Shown here in pieces: positions 7,314 through 12,841 of a stretch of DNA of 52,624 nucleotides. The notes under the pieces were generated by a model. That model had not been told where the DNA came from, did not search any database, and worked only from the letters and a program-made list of their open reading frames with translations. Source of the DNA: Gemmatimonadota bacterium (lineage in GTDB: Bacteria > Latescibacterota > UBA2968); the NCBI GenBank assembly GCA_009838845.1, contig VXRD01000158.1, forward strand, positions 1 to 52,624. The letters run 5' to 3'. The translations under genes were made by a program, and so were the position numbers. The number at the start of each line of letters is the position of its first letter. Position 1 is the first letter of the stretch.

Positions 7314-9131
7314 TCATACTTTGTCTAACCAGATCGGGCTGGTCCACGCCCGGTGGCCATCGTGCTGGTAGATGCGAAGGTAGCAGTAGTGAACACCTGA
7401 GGGTGAAAAGGTCAGGTGGACGGTATCTCCCAGAATAATGTGCTGTTTTTTGGGTGTAAAGGTTTGGGATATGTCCCCGTTGACCATCAATTCGATGCGG
7501 TCTATGTCTGCTGTGCCCAGAACTTCAGCGGTAAATTCGTAGCGATGTGCCCTGACAGTGCTGCCCATGGGATGGGAATTGATCTGAAAATCGATATAGA
7601 TCCGGGCGCCAGTGGTGGCGTAGCACCGGCGCTTTGAGAATGCATCGAAGATGGTGGGGCGGTCAAGCCGTTCCGCCCACAGGCCGGTAAGTCCCGCGGG
7701 TTTGCCAGGTCCCGGTTCCGGATAAGGGTTTGCCGGACGGGAGTCGTGGGTGTCGCTGCCGCTGACAATACCGAGTTTGAGACCCTGAAACTGGATGGCC
7801 CGGTTGATTTTGGCTTCTTCAAGATCTACGTTGACATTCTGCTTCTGGTAGATTTCTGCGAGGCATTCCCGTTCGTAAAAGGCGGTGTGAAAGTGCCCTT
7901 GAGTGAATCCACCCCGGGCATGGACGGCGTCGTAGAGTTCTCGGTAATCCTTGCAGTAGACGGTTTCCGGATGGTAGCGCGCTTGGAGTTTGGGGTCGTG
8001 GGCTTCGGGTCGATCTTCGCAGAAGATGGGAGAAAGACCGTCCAGATCGGGAAAGAATCCGAGACGGTGACTGCCGTCGGGTGGTGTGGCGAATTCAATG
8101 GAGGGAAGAGCAATAAATTCTCCGGGCAGTGTGAAGGAACGCCAGGCATCTATAAGCTGTTCCCAGACTTCGGCGATGCAGGCGCTATACGAAAAAAGTT
8201 GTCCGCCCGAGAAGCTCAGATGGGCGATGTCTCTGGCCCAGATAAAATAGTCTGTCAGAGGGCGCTGGTTGAACAGCATGCCGTGGATATCACCCCAGTA
8301 CAGAGTTAAATCAGAGGGTGTAGTAGTGACTCGCGTGGGATTGCTCTGAGCGTTCAGCTTTCCACGCCTGGCAGAGACCTGGTCCCAGGGGGCCTTCGCA
8401 GAGAGGTGGGTACGCGTGGTGTGGGAATTATCCAGAAATACGCTGATGCTTTCCGCTGCAGTAGCAAGGGTGAGTTCGTCTTTAGAAAAGACGGGATTGC
8501 CGTATGTGTCGATGGGGGTGACCTGCGCTGCGATACGCCCTGTGCTCAGCGCGTGCGCTGTCACCCGGAGCGTTTCCACAGATCCGGGCGCAATGGTGAG
8601 GGGATTGCTCTTGAGAATGGAGAGGTCTGTATCTCTGGGCAAAAAAAAGTGATACTTACCTCCTGGATGATGAAAAGAAAGGACACCGTCCAGATCTTCG
8701 ACAAGCCAGAAGTGAAAGGCGTCAATGGCGTTCTGCGGGAGCAGAAACCCGTCCGGATGGGTGCGAAGTGCAATGGTGACGCGTTCTCCGGGTGCAACCC
8801 GACCTTTTTTGCACCTGATGTGAACGGCGTGGAGAAACTCGGGCGTCAACGGGTGCGTGTCAAAGGTGCGCACAACGCCGCCTCCCACAAGGGGGACGCC
8901 CTCCCAGTCCGTGTCTGGTGGGCCTGTGATCTCGATGCCGTCGTGGGGTTGAAATGCCTGGTCCCTGTTGAGGTACTGGCGGATGTCGTAGAAGATCCAC
9001 AGGTTTCCACCGGCCCGAAATCCACCGTCCGGTGCCCGGTAGTGGAGCCGAAGATCCACGGGACAGCAGACCTGAAGCCTGCCGGCTGCGGTTGCCCAAA
9101 ATCGGCTGTCGGGCATGTGAATGTCTCGCAT
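7314..9131 (-). CDS. DUF3604 domain protein (predicted PHP-like metallohydrolase)
   Basis: This roughly 605-residue protein falls in the DUF3604 family, whose members carry PHP/amidohydrolase-like metal motifs. Visible blocks are YWGDIHG, TQGHFHTAFYE, and VSGSDTHDSRP followed by GLTGLWAE and RRCYATTGARI, the family's usual C-terminal signature. The His and Asp residues in these blocks are likely metal ligands. The start at 9131 directly follows the stop of the upstream sulfatase (TAAgATG) and uses AAAAAGG as ribosome site. A longer frame from 9167 has no ribosome site. Lying between two sulfatases in one transcription unit, it may act on the same sulfated compound. No biochemical function is established for the family to my knowledge. 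Confidence 0.8.
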   Translation of the reverse strand: MRDIHMPDSRFWATAAGRLQVCCPVDLRLHYRAPDGGFRAGGNLWIFYDIRQYLNRDQAFQPHDGIEITGPPDTDWEGVPLVGGGVVRTFDTHPLTPEFLHAVHIRCKKGRVAPGERVTIALRTHPDGFLLPQNAIDAFHFWLVEDLDGVLSFHHPGGKYHFFLPRDTDLSILKSNPLTIAPGSVETLRVTAHALSTGRIAAQVTPIDTYGNPVFSKDELTLATAAESISVFLDNSHTTRTHLSAKAPWDQVSARRGKLNAQSNPTRVTTTPSDLTLYWGDIHGMLFNQRPLTDYFIWARDIAHLSFSGGQLFSYSACIAEVWEQLIDAWRSFTLPGEFIALPSIEFATPPDGSHRLGFFPDLDGLSPIFCEDRPEAHDPKLQARYHPETVYCKDYRELYDAVHARGGFTQGHFHTAFYERECLAEIYQKQNVNVDLEEAKINRAIQFQGLKLGIVSGSDTHDSRPANPYPEPGPGKPAGLTGLWAERLDRPTIFDAFSKRRCYATTGARIYIDFQINSHPMGSTVRAHRYEFTAEVLGTADIDRIELMVNGDISQTFTPKKQHIILGDTVHLTFSPSGVHYCYLRIYQHDGHRAWTSPIWLDKV

Positions 9132-9132
9132 C

Positions 9133-10446
9133 TTACCTTTTTGAACTGTTGTCGCGTTTTCGCTCATCGGCTATTTGTTCGAGCATGCCATGCATGCGGT
9201 CGGTTTGTGAGGAGGTAATATTTGTTGTTTCATAGGGGTCGGAACCGATGTGAAAGAGTTGGGTTTCTTCCGGGGTTTGGCCTTCTTCGTAGATCAATTT
9301 CCAATTGCCCGTTCGCATGCCAAAGGACGATCCCCTGAAGTTCCAGAAGATAGACCGTTCTTCGGGTACGGTGATGTCCCCTGTAAGCAGGGGCCAGATG
9401 TCCTGGCCATCCCATTGGGGATCGCTGCTGGGCGTGTAATTGATGAGATTGGTCAGGGTTGGCATCCAGTCGGTTATGTGCAGGGGGTGAAAGCATTTGC
9501 CGGGTTGGAGATGAAAAGGCCAGTTGATCAGGGATGGGGTGCGTATGCCGCCTTCGTAGAGTTGAGATTTTTGACCTCGCAAGGGCAGGTTGCTGCCCAG
9601 GCGCGGCATTTCTTCGTGGCGGCCCGGGTATTTGTCCGTGTCGTGAAGGGGACCGGCAGGGATGGCGCCGTTGTCCGATGAGAAGATGATGATGGTGTTT
9701 TCGCGCTGGCACAGGCGGGCAAGGGTTTCGACGAGTTGGCCGATGGCGTGGTCCATCTGGCTGGCGTACGCGGCATAGGTTTTGTATGAGCGGTCTTTGT
9801 TGTCGTCGGGATCGTAGCGCCGGTCTGAATAGCGGTCTATCCAGTGCTGTGGTGCTTTGATGGGGGTGTGAACAGCGGTGAAGGGGACATAGCAAAACCA
9901 GGGGTCTGTTTGCGCTTCGATCCATTGGATGGCTTCCCGGGCGATGAGGTCGGTGACGTGGCCGCGTTCTTCAACGAGTTCGCCATTGCGGTGCCAGGTG
10001 ACGCTGAATGGCCCCGATTTGTAGCGGTGGTTATACGGATCAACGCCGCCGGCAAGGCTCCCATAAGCGGTATTGAAACCAAATTGGTTGGGACCGTATT
10101 CGGGAGAAGATCCCAGATGCCATTTTCCAAAGAGGCCGGTTTCGTAGCCCGCATTGCGGAAGGATGAGGCCAGTGTTTCATACCCATCTGGCAGGACGGG
10201 GGCATTGGATGGGACGGTGGCGTGGCGTCCAAAGCGACCGGGATGGCGGCCCGTCAGCAGACAGGTGCGGGTGGGGGTACACATGGGACAGACGTAGTGC
10301 TGGTCGAGTTCGATTCCCGTGGCTGCGAGGCGGTCGATATTGGGCGTGCGAATGTGTGAGCCGTGATAGCTGACGTCACCCCAGCCCATGTCGTCGGCGA
10401 GGATGAAGAGGATGTTGGGTTTTTCAATTTTTCCGGATTTGGTCAT
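9133..10446 (-). CDS. sulfatase (arylsulfatase A-like)
   Basis: This 437-residue type I sulfatase has ILADDMGWGDV (metal site) at 15-25 and a canonical Cys56-Thr-Pro-Thr-Arg motif followed by TCLLTGRHPGR. The Cys is expected to be converted to formylglycine by a maturase not present in this window. The second metal site is FSSDNGAIPAG. No signal peptide is visible. AAAGGA lies eight bases before the ATG. It is the first gene of the unit with DUF3604 and a second sulfatase, and the use of two sulfatases of different subtype implies a multiply sulfated substrate (inference). Confidence 0.92.
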   Translation of the reverse strand: MTKSGKIEKPNILFILADDMGWGDVSYHGSHIRTPNIDRLAATGIELDQHYVCPMCTPTRTCLLTGRHPGRFGRHATVPSNAPVLPDGYETLASSFRNAGYETGLFGKWHLGSSPEYGPNQFGFNTAYGSLAGGVDPYNHRYKSGPFSVTWHRNGELVEERGHVTDLIAREAIQWIEAQTDPWFCYVPFTAVHTPIKAPQHWIDRYSDRRYDPDDNKDRSYKTYAAYASQMDHAIGQLVETLARLCQRENTIIIFSSDNGAIPAGPLHDTDKYPGRHEEMPRLGSNLPLRGQKSQLYEGGIRTPSLINWPFHLQPGKCFHPLHITDWMPTLTNLINYTPSSDPQWDGQDIWPLLTGDITVPEERSIFWNFRGSSFGMRTGNWKLIYEEGQTPEETQLFHIGSDPYETTNITSSQTDRMHGMLEQIADERKRDNSSKR

Positions 10447-10987: not shown

Positions 10988-11728
10988 CTACTGTGCAGTT
11001 TTGAGGGCTTGTATCGCGTCGTCGGTGGCGTCGATGACATGGGCACCCGCGGGTACGATAAATTCAAACCATTTGTCTTTCAAGTCTGGGTTGATGGTTA
11101 AATTGTGAAAGGTCTGCGTGATGATCTCATTGTTTTCGGCATCAAAAAAGCCAATCCGGCGCAATAGGCCATCTTCGGGATTGATGAGTAATTGTGCTTT
11201 GACAGGGGGATTAGGCAGTTGTGCGTGCAAGAGATTGACTTTGATCTTTGCTTCAAAGACGCGGTGGGAGCGTTCCTCAAATATTTCGTCTGCGGTGTAG
11301 CGAATGCTCGTCCATTCCAGACCTCTAAAGGGACGCAAAGGGTCGGCCTGGTCTGCATCGGCTTCGAGGTTGGTGATGCGATAGACACGCCCCAGGTTCA
11401 CTTTGGAGACGATTTTTTCTTCGCGGTCATAGGTCCACATCAATCCGCCGTCAGACAAACGTTGTGAAATAATTACTTGATCTTGCACGGTGTCGAGACG
11501 CATCAGGTTGGGGCGCTTAAAGGTTGCACTGGCATTGAGTGTCAGTTCTTGATCCATAACGCGAATAATGGTTGTTTGTTCTGCCTTACAGGTGGCGATT
11601 TCTCTGGCGTTTTTTTGAATTTCGACCATTATTTCATCGGTCTTACCATCTCCTGTTGACATTTTGTTTTCGTTTTCCGCGCTGACCTGAGTTGTGAGGA
11701 TCAGCATTGCGATCACCCAGCGTTTCAT
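10988..11728 (-). CDS. outer-membrane lipoprotein carrier protein LolA-like
   Basis: This 246-residue periplasmic protein has a signal peptide (about 1-18, cleavage after VSA). The mature part has the features of the LolA/LolB fold: an N-terminal helix, then antiparallel strands with the KRPNLMRLD and DGGLMWTYD segments that mirror the LolA FKRPNLFRW/SDGxxLWxYD pattern. It should shuttle lipoproteins from the inner to the outer membrane. AAGGAG sits six bases ahead of the ATG. The start codon lies only 12 bases from that of the divergent trmY-like gene, so each promoter must be inside the other coding region or transcription must be leaderless on one side. Confidence 0.75.
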   Translation of the reverse strand: MKRWVIAMLILTTQVSAENENKMSTGDGKTDEIMVEIQKNAREIATCKAEQTTIIRVMDQELTLNASATFKRPNLMRLDTVQDQVIISQRLSDGGLMWTYDREEKIVSKVNLGRVYRITNLEADADQADPLRPFRGLEWTSIRYTADEIFEERSHRVFEAKIKVNLLHAQLPNPPVKAQLLINPEDGLLRRIGFFDAENNEIITQTFHNLTINPDLKDKWFEFIVPAGAHVIDATDDAIQALKTAQ

Positions 11729-11740
11729 GACTGGCTCCTT

Positions 11741-12337
11741 ATGAGAAATTTTATTCTTCGCGCTCGCAAAGGTCCCACCACACCCGATTTTTCACTGGAT
11801 GATCTGAGCCGGGTTGGACGATTGGAGATTGTGGCGCATTGTTTGGCCAACGCGCTTTTTTATTCTCAAAATATACGAACAAATACTGTTGTACATCTCG
11901 TATTTGATGGGCCTTCGGACCCACCGAAAACCGTGCGTTTTGAAAGCGATCATCTGACCTATTTGGGTGGGTTTGATGAACGCACGCTGGCAGGGGCTGT
12001 GCAAAAAGCACTATCTACCGGCAAGGGTTTGTCACTGGGCGAAGAGCGGCAGGTTGATGACGGTTTGTTTGTGGCAAAAAAGGGATTTGAACGCGTTGTG
12101 CAAGATCGCACAGAATCGCTCTATGTACTCGAGCGCCGAGGTGTTGACATTCGCACGGTGACATTTTCCCAGGATGTAACTTTTGTTTTTTCAGATCATC
12201 TCACAATGCCAAAAAAAACGGCTAAGTATTTGCGCCGCCTCGGTGCCAAGCCGATTTGCGTGGGGCCCCGAATGTTGTTTGCCTCTCAGTGTATCGTGCT
12301 GCTACACAATGAGTTGGACCGACAGGGTATTTGGTAA
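11741..12337 (+). CDS. trmY: tRNA pseudouridine(54)-N1-methyltransferase TrmY-like (COG1901)
   Basis: This 198-residue protein is full length for the SPOUT methyltransferase TrmY, which in archaea makes N1-methylpseudouridine at tRNA position 54 using S-adenosylmethionine. The recognisable signature is at the N-terminus, PTTPDFSLDDL (12-22), preceded by a basic Arg-rich start. The C-terminus has FVFSDH followed by a final VGPRMLFASQCIVLLHNELD, the knotted SAM-binding end. The N-terminus aligns with the family from residue 1, so the ATG at 11741 is right even though no Shine-Dalgarno is visible. The gene is rare in bacteria. It is convergent with the next gene (6-base gap). Confidence 0.85.
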   Translation: MRNFILRARKGPTTPDFSLDDLSRVGRLEIVAHCLANALFYSQNIRTNTVVHLVFDGPSDPPKTVRFESDHLTYLGGFDERTLAGAVQKALSTGKGLSLGEERQVDDGLFVAKKGFERVVQDRTESLYVLERRGVDIRTVTFSQDVTFVFSDHLTMPKKTAKYLRRLGAKPICVGPRMLFASQCIVLLHNELDRQGIW

Positions 12338-12343
12338 AGTGAT

Positions 12344-12841
12344 TTACTGAAAGAGTTTGAATGTTGCGCCGATGTGTCCGGAAAATCCGCTGACGACATC
12401 GTTTTGATCTTCGACAAATTTGATTCTGACAAATATCCCGAGTTTTTCACCTATTGGAAATTTGTATCCCAATTCTCCACCTATAAAACGCTCAGAAACA
12501 CCATCGGATAATACAATTCCAATACTCGGTCCCAAAAATAGCTTGTGGGTTTCAAAATCGCGCATGCCAATCGCATAATTGAGACTCGTGCCCAGGGTCT
12601 GCATCATCGGGCTGGCAAAACTTATGTCGTAAAACGGCGCAAATATGAATGGACCGGGCAGGTTGAGATGGACAGAGGCGTGCAGGGCGATTCCGCCAGC
12701 TGATTCAAAACGCGGACGGACACTGTCATTCCACATAAAGCCTCCACCGAGATTTACGCCGTCGATAAATGCCGCATGGGCAGTGCCTATATTAGCAGAC
12801 AACACACATAGCGCGAGACAAAAACTTTTTAGAATCTTCAT
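12344..12841 (-). CDS. hypothetical secreted, probable outer-membrane protein
   Basis: This 165-residue protein has a clear signal peptide (hydrophobic about 5-20, AHA cleavage) and a short, glycine-rich, strand-forming mature region ending in ATFKLFQ. The size and alternating pattern fit a small beta-barrel of eight strands. No family is recognised. It lies 11 bases downstream of manC on the same strand and may be cotranscribed with it. AGGAGCG is present upstream of the ATG. Confidence 0.6.
   Translation of the reverse strand: MKILKSFCLALCVLSANIGTAHAAFIDGVNLGGGFMWNDSVRPRFESAGGIALHASVHLNLPGPFIFAPFYDISFASPMMQTLGTSLNYAIGMRDFETHKLFLGPSIGIVLSDGVSERFIGGELGYKFPIGEKLGIFVRIKFVEDQNDVVSGFSGHIGATFKLFQ

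Follow-up and report, generated by a model that had tools for sequence, protein, structure and literature searches.

Which RNA would a bacterium modify with a protein whose archaeal relatives are tRNA N1-methylpseudouridine-54 (m1Psi54) methyltransferases? The question is raised by a gene in a stretch of 52,624 nucleotides (contig VXRD01000158.1 of assembly GCA_009838845.1, hereafter the window) from a Gemmatimonadota bacterium that is assigned to the Latescibacterota in GTDB. A sequence-only reading had taken the encoded protein for an archaeal-type TrmY and had offered two options, an unusual tRNA modification or a different target RNA, of which the latter turned out to be the better reading. 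Here, we describe the family, predicted fold, conservation, selection and clade position of this protein, which is an intact, dispensable member of a bacterial branch of COG1901.

Family, predicted fold and conserved residues

The protein (Table 1) matches the Pfam profile PF04013 from end to end (E 2.8e-54, 184.3 bits against a cut-off of 25.5), and this full-length match above the curated cut-off places it in COG1901/PF04013. In addition, it scores 206.6 bits with NF002560 (cut-off 183), the NCBIfam equivalog model for 'tRNA (pseudouridine(54)-N(1))-methyltransferase TrmY'. An AlphaFold2 model, for which 30 sequences served as input, reached a mean pLDDT of 91.1 and a pTM of 0.90. Its five top fold matches in the PDB were chains of solved COG1901 structures, with TM scores (query) of 0.87-0.92, among them the M. 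jannaschii TrmY MJ1640 (3aia, 0.92), AF_1056 (2qmm, 0.89) and VCA1059 of Vibrio cholerae (UPF0217; 2qwv, 0.87). The predicted model thus has the SPOUT fold of these three structures, with the knot not itself traced. The next nearest fold, with a TM score of 0.65, was that of the SPOUT protein Nep1/Emg1, an rRNA pseudouridine-N1-methyltransferase, which however belongs to a different family and shares 11-15% identity in structural alignments. By sequence, VCA1059 was the best match in the PDB (155 bits), ahead of AF_1056 (112 bits) and MJ1640 (97 bits).

Table 1. The TrmY-like gene, regions within it and its two neighbours in the window.
Feature	Coordinates	Strand	Details	Evidence
TrmY-like SPOUT methyltransferase gene (COG1901/PF04013)	11741..12337	+	198 aa, ATG start	Profile and structure matches
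Codons of PTTPDFSLDDL	11774..11806	+	Residues 12-22	Alignment
Putative C-terminal knot / SAM-site region	12176..12322	+	Residues about 146-194	Conservation, model secondary structure
LolA/DUF2092-like protein, divergent neighbour	10988..11728	-	Start codon 12 nt from TrmY start	
Convergent neighbour	12344..12841	-	No Pfam match	Pfam search

The residues common to at least 36 of 38 bacterial rows of the alignment as well as to AF_1056 and MJ1640 include R2, F4, R46, E80, G108, G134, D152, A181, C184, H189 and D193. Five of these (D152, A181, C184, H189 and D193) are present in all 38 bacterial rows and in both archaeal proteins, and C184 and H189 vary among the rows of archaea to which we apply the label DPANN (genomes of the phylum of L059, Woesearchaeota, together with L066, an archaeon). 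The C-terminal region, with D152, G175-P176, C184 and H189-N190-E191-L192-D193, would by analogy with the SPOUT fold comprise the knot and the SAM site. That this region is intact, as the sequence-only reading had stated, was confirmed by the sequence and agrees with the model. The same reading had regarded PTTPDFSLDDL as a signature; while the motif is indeed present, it does not characterize the family, as the region is similar in Latescibacterota and partly so in archaeal members but differs in the Vibrio member VCA1059, which has PTDSQRLLDEI at this position. Several residues, namely E29, G175, F180 and E191, differ between the bacterial branch and AF_1056/MJ1640, and these differences could reflect an altered specificity or an altered chemistry.

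A bacterial branch of COG1901

A tree built from 63 selected rows placed all 38 of the bacterial ones in a single clade (support 99/95), with the 23 DPANN rows outside of it. The root was chosen, with AF_1056 and MJ1640 as the only two euryarchaeal rows and the chosen outgroup; with this rooting, the window protein is placed not among archaeal TrmY but together with VCA1059 and the other bacterial members. There was little support for the Latescibacterota as a single group (42/2), with a long-branched gammaproteobacterial row (L055) placed among them, and the tree program marked the branches of AF_1056 and L147 as long and the composition of L141 and L147 as unusual. The window protein shares 58-96% identity with 13 further rows from Latescibacterota. 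For gammaproteobacteria (23 rows) the range is 40-47%, and for the spirochaete the value is 41%. Among DPANN, the 12 nearer rows reach 38-47% and the remaining 11 rows 25-36%; AF_1056 and MJ1640 lie at 32-35%. Both the clade and the higher bit score of VCA1059 compared to the archaeal structures therefore speak against the designation as archaeal-type, and in this sample the protein lies inside a large bacterial clade that unites 38 of 38 bacterial rows, a placement that the sequence-only reading had named as speaking against its interpretation. The gene represents an old bacterial lineage, which perhaps goes back to one early transfer.

The resemblance to VCA1059 extends to the C-terminal motifs MPKK...GPxMLFASQC...HNE[LI]D, which are common to both proteins, whereas towards its N-terminus the window protein is more like the archaeal members (FSLDDL, PPK, DER). 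Archaeal TrmY proteins such as MJ1640 and AF_1056 share PF04013, the fold and the residues D152, C184, H189 and D193, yet they are outside the bacterial clade and have a Pus10 partner, which was not found here (see below). The DPANN members (e.g., L059, L066 and L130) resemble the window protein in their HNELDR and LFA/SxC-like motifs and, for the 12 nearer rows, in their identity, and they likewise occur without Pus10 over the cut-off; however, their hosts are archaea and they are not inside the bacterial clade. One of these genomes (G160) encodes two COG1901 paralogues, L137 and L152, of which one is similar to the bacterial branch and the other falls in another DPANN branch.

The window protein adds to an already known bacterial COG1901 subfamily. 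Bacterial members were noted as possible transfers from archaea in 2007 (PMC1829167), a table from 2016 lists COG1901 both as 'TrmY Archaeal m1Psi54 methylase' and as 'Bacterial unknown methylase' (PMC5041015), and a review from 2017 describes the family as occurring only in archaea (PMC5372735). Within the retrieved passages of the open-licence literature searched, we found no assigned target for a bacterial member.

Distribution, conservation and loss

PF04013 was found in 25 of 41 genomes (the own genome and 40 relatives), including 10 of the 11 genomes of its genus within the Latescibacterota; in two genomes (G001 and G014) it was present only as pieces at contig ends, and some of the 16 genomes called as lacking TrmY are incomplete. 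Phylum-wide, it was found in 25 of 64 genomes, all of them from the own class and none from the 17 genomes outside this class, and the gene spans three families and 10 genera. The search matched three archaea only among 14 control genomes. A scan of genome contigs, which relies on short conserved patterns and may therefore miss rarer or more distant carriers, revealed 220 stretches encoding relatives. Among the best 80 of these 220, which were examined, 20 belong to the own phylum, 57 to Pseudomonadota (mainly Photobacterium, Vibrio, Shewanella and Alcanivorax), 1 to a spirochaete and 2 to archaea. For plasmids, 5 Vibrio/Photobacterium records came up, and one scan for viral carriers gave 31 pattern matches with no relatives among them.

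Within the genus, the gene is under strong purifying selection, with dN/dS values of 0.033-0.171 in 28 of 28 pairs of 8 sequences. Nevertheless, it is dispensable: G008, a closed genome from this genus, has no TrmY, and the aligned parts of both flanking genes, homologues of the LolA-like gene and of the convergent neighbour, are 24 nt apart, compared to 620 nt including TrmY between the corresponding genes in the closed genome G007. Since TrmY has a divergent LolA-like gene upstream of it in 10 of the best 80 loci, six of the genus and four others, G008 most likely lost TrmY. Four other genomes without TrmY (G012, G015, G017 and G018) contain a LolA-like gene with no TrmY adjoining. The spacing between the divergent start codons (11726-11743) was the same in all 5 relatives of the genus examined. 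By eye, no Shine-Dalgarno-like sequence precedes the TrmY ATG on its own strand in the genus, and the sole motif of this kind in the interval serves the minus-strand gene; TrmY in the genus thus seems to start without a Shine-Dalgarno sequence.

Two alternative accounts of the gene itself have to be weighed against these data. Its absence from G008 between conserved neighbours, its patchy detection among the 41 genomes, some of them incomplete, and the start region without a Shine-Dalgarno-like motif would suit a degenerate or silent relic, but the frames are intact, dN/dS is low in every pair and the residues of the C-terminal region are invariant, which makes a relic very improbable. A recent horizontal import from an archaeon could draw on the nearer DPANN rows, which match the window protein as closely as the gammaproteobacterial ones do and are placed directly below the bacterial clade when AF_1056 and MJ1640 are used as outgroup. 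It is hardly credible, however, given that every bacterial row falls into one well-supported clade, that its distribution in the phylum covers three families and 10 genera, and that a neighbour is conserved in 10 loci, whereas the gene may go back to an old single transfer.

Enzymes acting at tRNA position 54

The sequence-only reading had named a Psi54 synthase, TrmA and TrmFO as the genes to look for. Archaeal TrmY works with the synthase Pus10 (PMC7912444). A profile model that found archaeal controls gave no match for Pus10 in any of the 41 own and related genomes, nor in any of 7 additional carriers among bacteria. In 28 DPANN genomes, of which 22 encode COG1901, no Pus10 exceeded the cut-off, and 27 contained weak partial matches that span some 80-100 profile positions. 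A match below the cut-off was likewise obtained for one of the four archaeal controls; this is presumably Sulfolobus acidocaldarius, for which PMC7912444 states the lack of Pus10, and the weak DPANN matches are therefore probably Cbf5-like.

The results for the enzymes of ribothymidine (m5U) formation differ between groups. TrmFO was not found over the cut-off in any of the 41 genomes. Weak matches in 38 of them were confined to profile positions 271-392; the frames are 622-787 aa long, a length that points to MnmG, and the matches were not counted as TrmFO. PF05958, the TrmA/RlmC/RlmD family, had no match in any of the 11 genomes of the own genus (G000-G010), but it matched in 28 of the 30 other genomes searched (below the cut-off in one of the 28); a second model, for TrmA, likewise gave no match in G000, G007 and G008. 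This suggests that the m5U enzymes of tRNA as well as of rRNA were lost in the own genus, the genomes of which measure 4.6-6.5 Mb. PF05958 proteins are present in all 15 TrmY-positive relatives from other genera (in the three of these examined with the TrmA model, they scored far below its cut-off), and G008 is without both PF05958 and TrmY. Thus, there is no sign that either replaced the other. Loss of m5U54 is known elsewhere, as its enzymes are described as absent from most Mollicutes (PMC7226160).

Outside the phylum, the search covered TrmA, which exceeded the equivalog cut-off in 12 of 23 TrmY carriers (20 Pseudomonadota, 1 spirochaete and 2 DPANN). The other 11 carriers had no TrmA over the cut-off (weaker matches only in 10, none in G063). 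TrmA makes m5U at tRNA position 54, and a conflict with this modification was therefore found for about half of the 23 carriers. They include the two Vibrio genomes examined (those of L077 and L095), which carry TrmA; the genus of the window has no PF05958 match. A similar case may exist in archaea: the prefix of the locus PF1403 is presumably that of Pyrococcus furiosus. As PF1403 represents COG1901 in PMC1829167, and P. furiosus tRNA contains m5U54/m5s2U54 according to PMC7668247, an archaeal member would also occur where position 54 is not m1Psi.

A candidate pseudouridine methyltransferase and its target

We propose that the protein would act as a dimeric SPOUT (trefoil-knot) enzyme that takes a methyl group from SAM and places it on the N1 atom of a pseudouridine within some structured RNA. 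Dimerization, the use of SAM and the N1-pseudouridine chemistry are here extrapolated from archaeal TrmY and from the structural neighbour Nep1, which performs N1-methylpseudouridine chemistry, while the fold and the conserved residues of the model suggest SAM-dependent methyl transfer to RNA. Because no Pus10 over the cut-off was found in the branch where it was searched and TrmA accompanies the protein in 12 of the 23 carriers from other phyla, the target pseudouridine would most likely be the product of a common bacterial synthase, either TruB or an enzyme of the RluA/RsuA type, and would not be Psi54 made by Pus10. Such substrates should exist, since TruB was detected in 39 of 41 genomes and every one of the 11 genomes of the genus gave 3-4 PF00849 matches; for this family, the closed genomes with and without TrmY did not differ (3 each). 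All in all, we consider N1-methylation of some pseudouridine other than Psi54 probable, another chemistry or a lost activity doubtful though conceivable, and Psi54 as the target unlikely.

As a counterpoint, the score above the cut-off of the equivalog model NF002560 would name the protein a TrmY acting on Psi54. For a true TrmY function, an unrecognized bacterial enzyme, either a TruB of broader specificity or a paralogue of the RluA type, would have to make Psi54, which the protein would then methylate, so that m1Psi54 takes the place of m5U54, to which it is similar in shape. The genus of the window, where neither PF05958 nor TrmFO over the cut-off was detected and the TrmA model found nothing in three genomes, would fit such a function, as would the DPANN archaea with the COG1901 members nearest to bacteria, which also manage without Pus10 over the cut-off. 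On the other hand, Pus10 was not found in any of the 41 genomes, G008 lives without both PF05958 and TrmY, carriers with TrmA should not need the protein for position 54 in most tRNAs, and we infer from the PF05958 proteins of the TrmY-positive relatives outside the genus that TrmY is older than the loss of this family. It is therefore improbable that the protein makes m1Psi54 in bacterial tRNA, and of the TrmY-type interpretation in the sequence-only reading, the TrmY-family enzyme in a bacterium holds, but the Psi54 substrate is not supported. Similarly improbable is the variant in which, in the own genus, the known m5U54 enzymes would be gone and m1Psi would have replaced ribothymidine at tRNA position 54, formed by this protein on a Psi54 from a bacterial synthase other than Pus10; bacteria would then have arrived independently at their own form of the archaeal T-loop. 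A concrete case of the preferred reading, methylation of a pseudouridine other than Psi54, would be an rRNA target such as a helix 69 pseudouridine (23S 1911/1915/1917), partly overlapping with the m3Psi1915 enzyme RlmH. RlmH (PF02590) was missing from 9 of 41 genomes, more often in those with TrmY (7 of 25) than in those without (2 of 16), and within the family f4 from 6 of 10 compared to 1 of 9 (Fisher p 0.057); the genus g14 (G026, G030, G031, G036 and G039) has TrmY but no RlmH match in all five genomes. Together with the fold likeness to the rRNA enzyme Nep1, this is consistent with an rRNA target. However, the association is not significant over the 41 genomes (p 0.44), five of the seven genomes with TrmY and without RlmH are from one genus, and the own genome carries both genes, and we regard this particular target as unlikely.

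It is worth noting that COG1901 occurs here without a recognizable Pus10. Since both a coherent bacterial branch and DPANN members lack Pus10 over the cut-off, the position number in the database name, Psi54, is probably wrong for them. For culturable bacteria, Shewanella and Photobacterium among them, this suggests a pseudouridine methylation that has yet to be assigned, and the genus of the window, with no TrmA/TrmFO-type enzyme detected, is a natural place to ask about tRNA position 54.

Genomic neighbourhood

The neighbourhood was also considered as a clue to the target and was rejected as such, as homologous neighbours recur within groups only and none of them is linked to RNA. This is based on Pfam annotation of one or two examples from each of the larger groups. 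Among the best 80 of 220 loci, the recurrent neighbours in Latescibacterota groups are the LolA-like gene (10 loci) and an M23 peptidase gene (9 loci); those in gammaproteobacteria encode a PmbA/TldD-type peptidase (12), an ABC-transporter ATPase (11), a phosphomethylpyrimidine kinase (11), a DUF3087 protein (10) and a glycoside hydrolase 97 (8). The product of the convergent neighbour in the window might, as a guess, be outer-membrane-like. In another family of the class (L045-L053), the M23 peptidase gene follows TrmY in 9 loci, often with a bactofilin gene (7 loci), as annotated with Pfam on L045 and L049 for the peptidase and on L045 for bactofilin. Elsewhere in the window (7314-10446), a gene for a DUF3604 protein adjoins a sulfatase gene.
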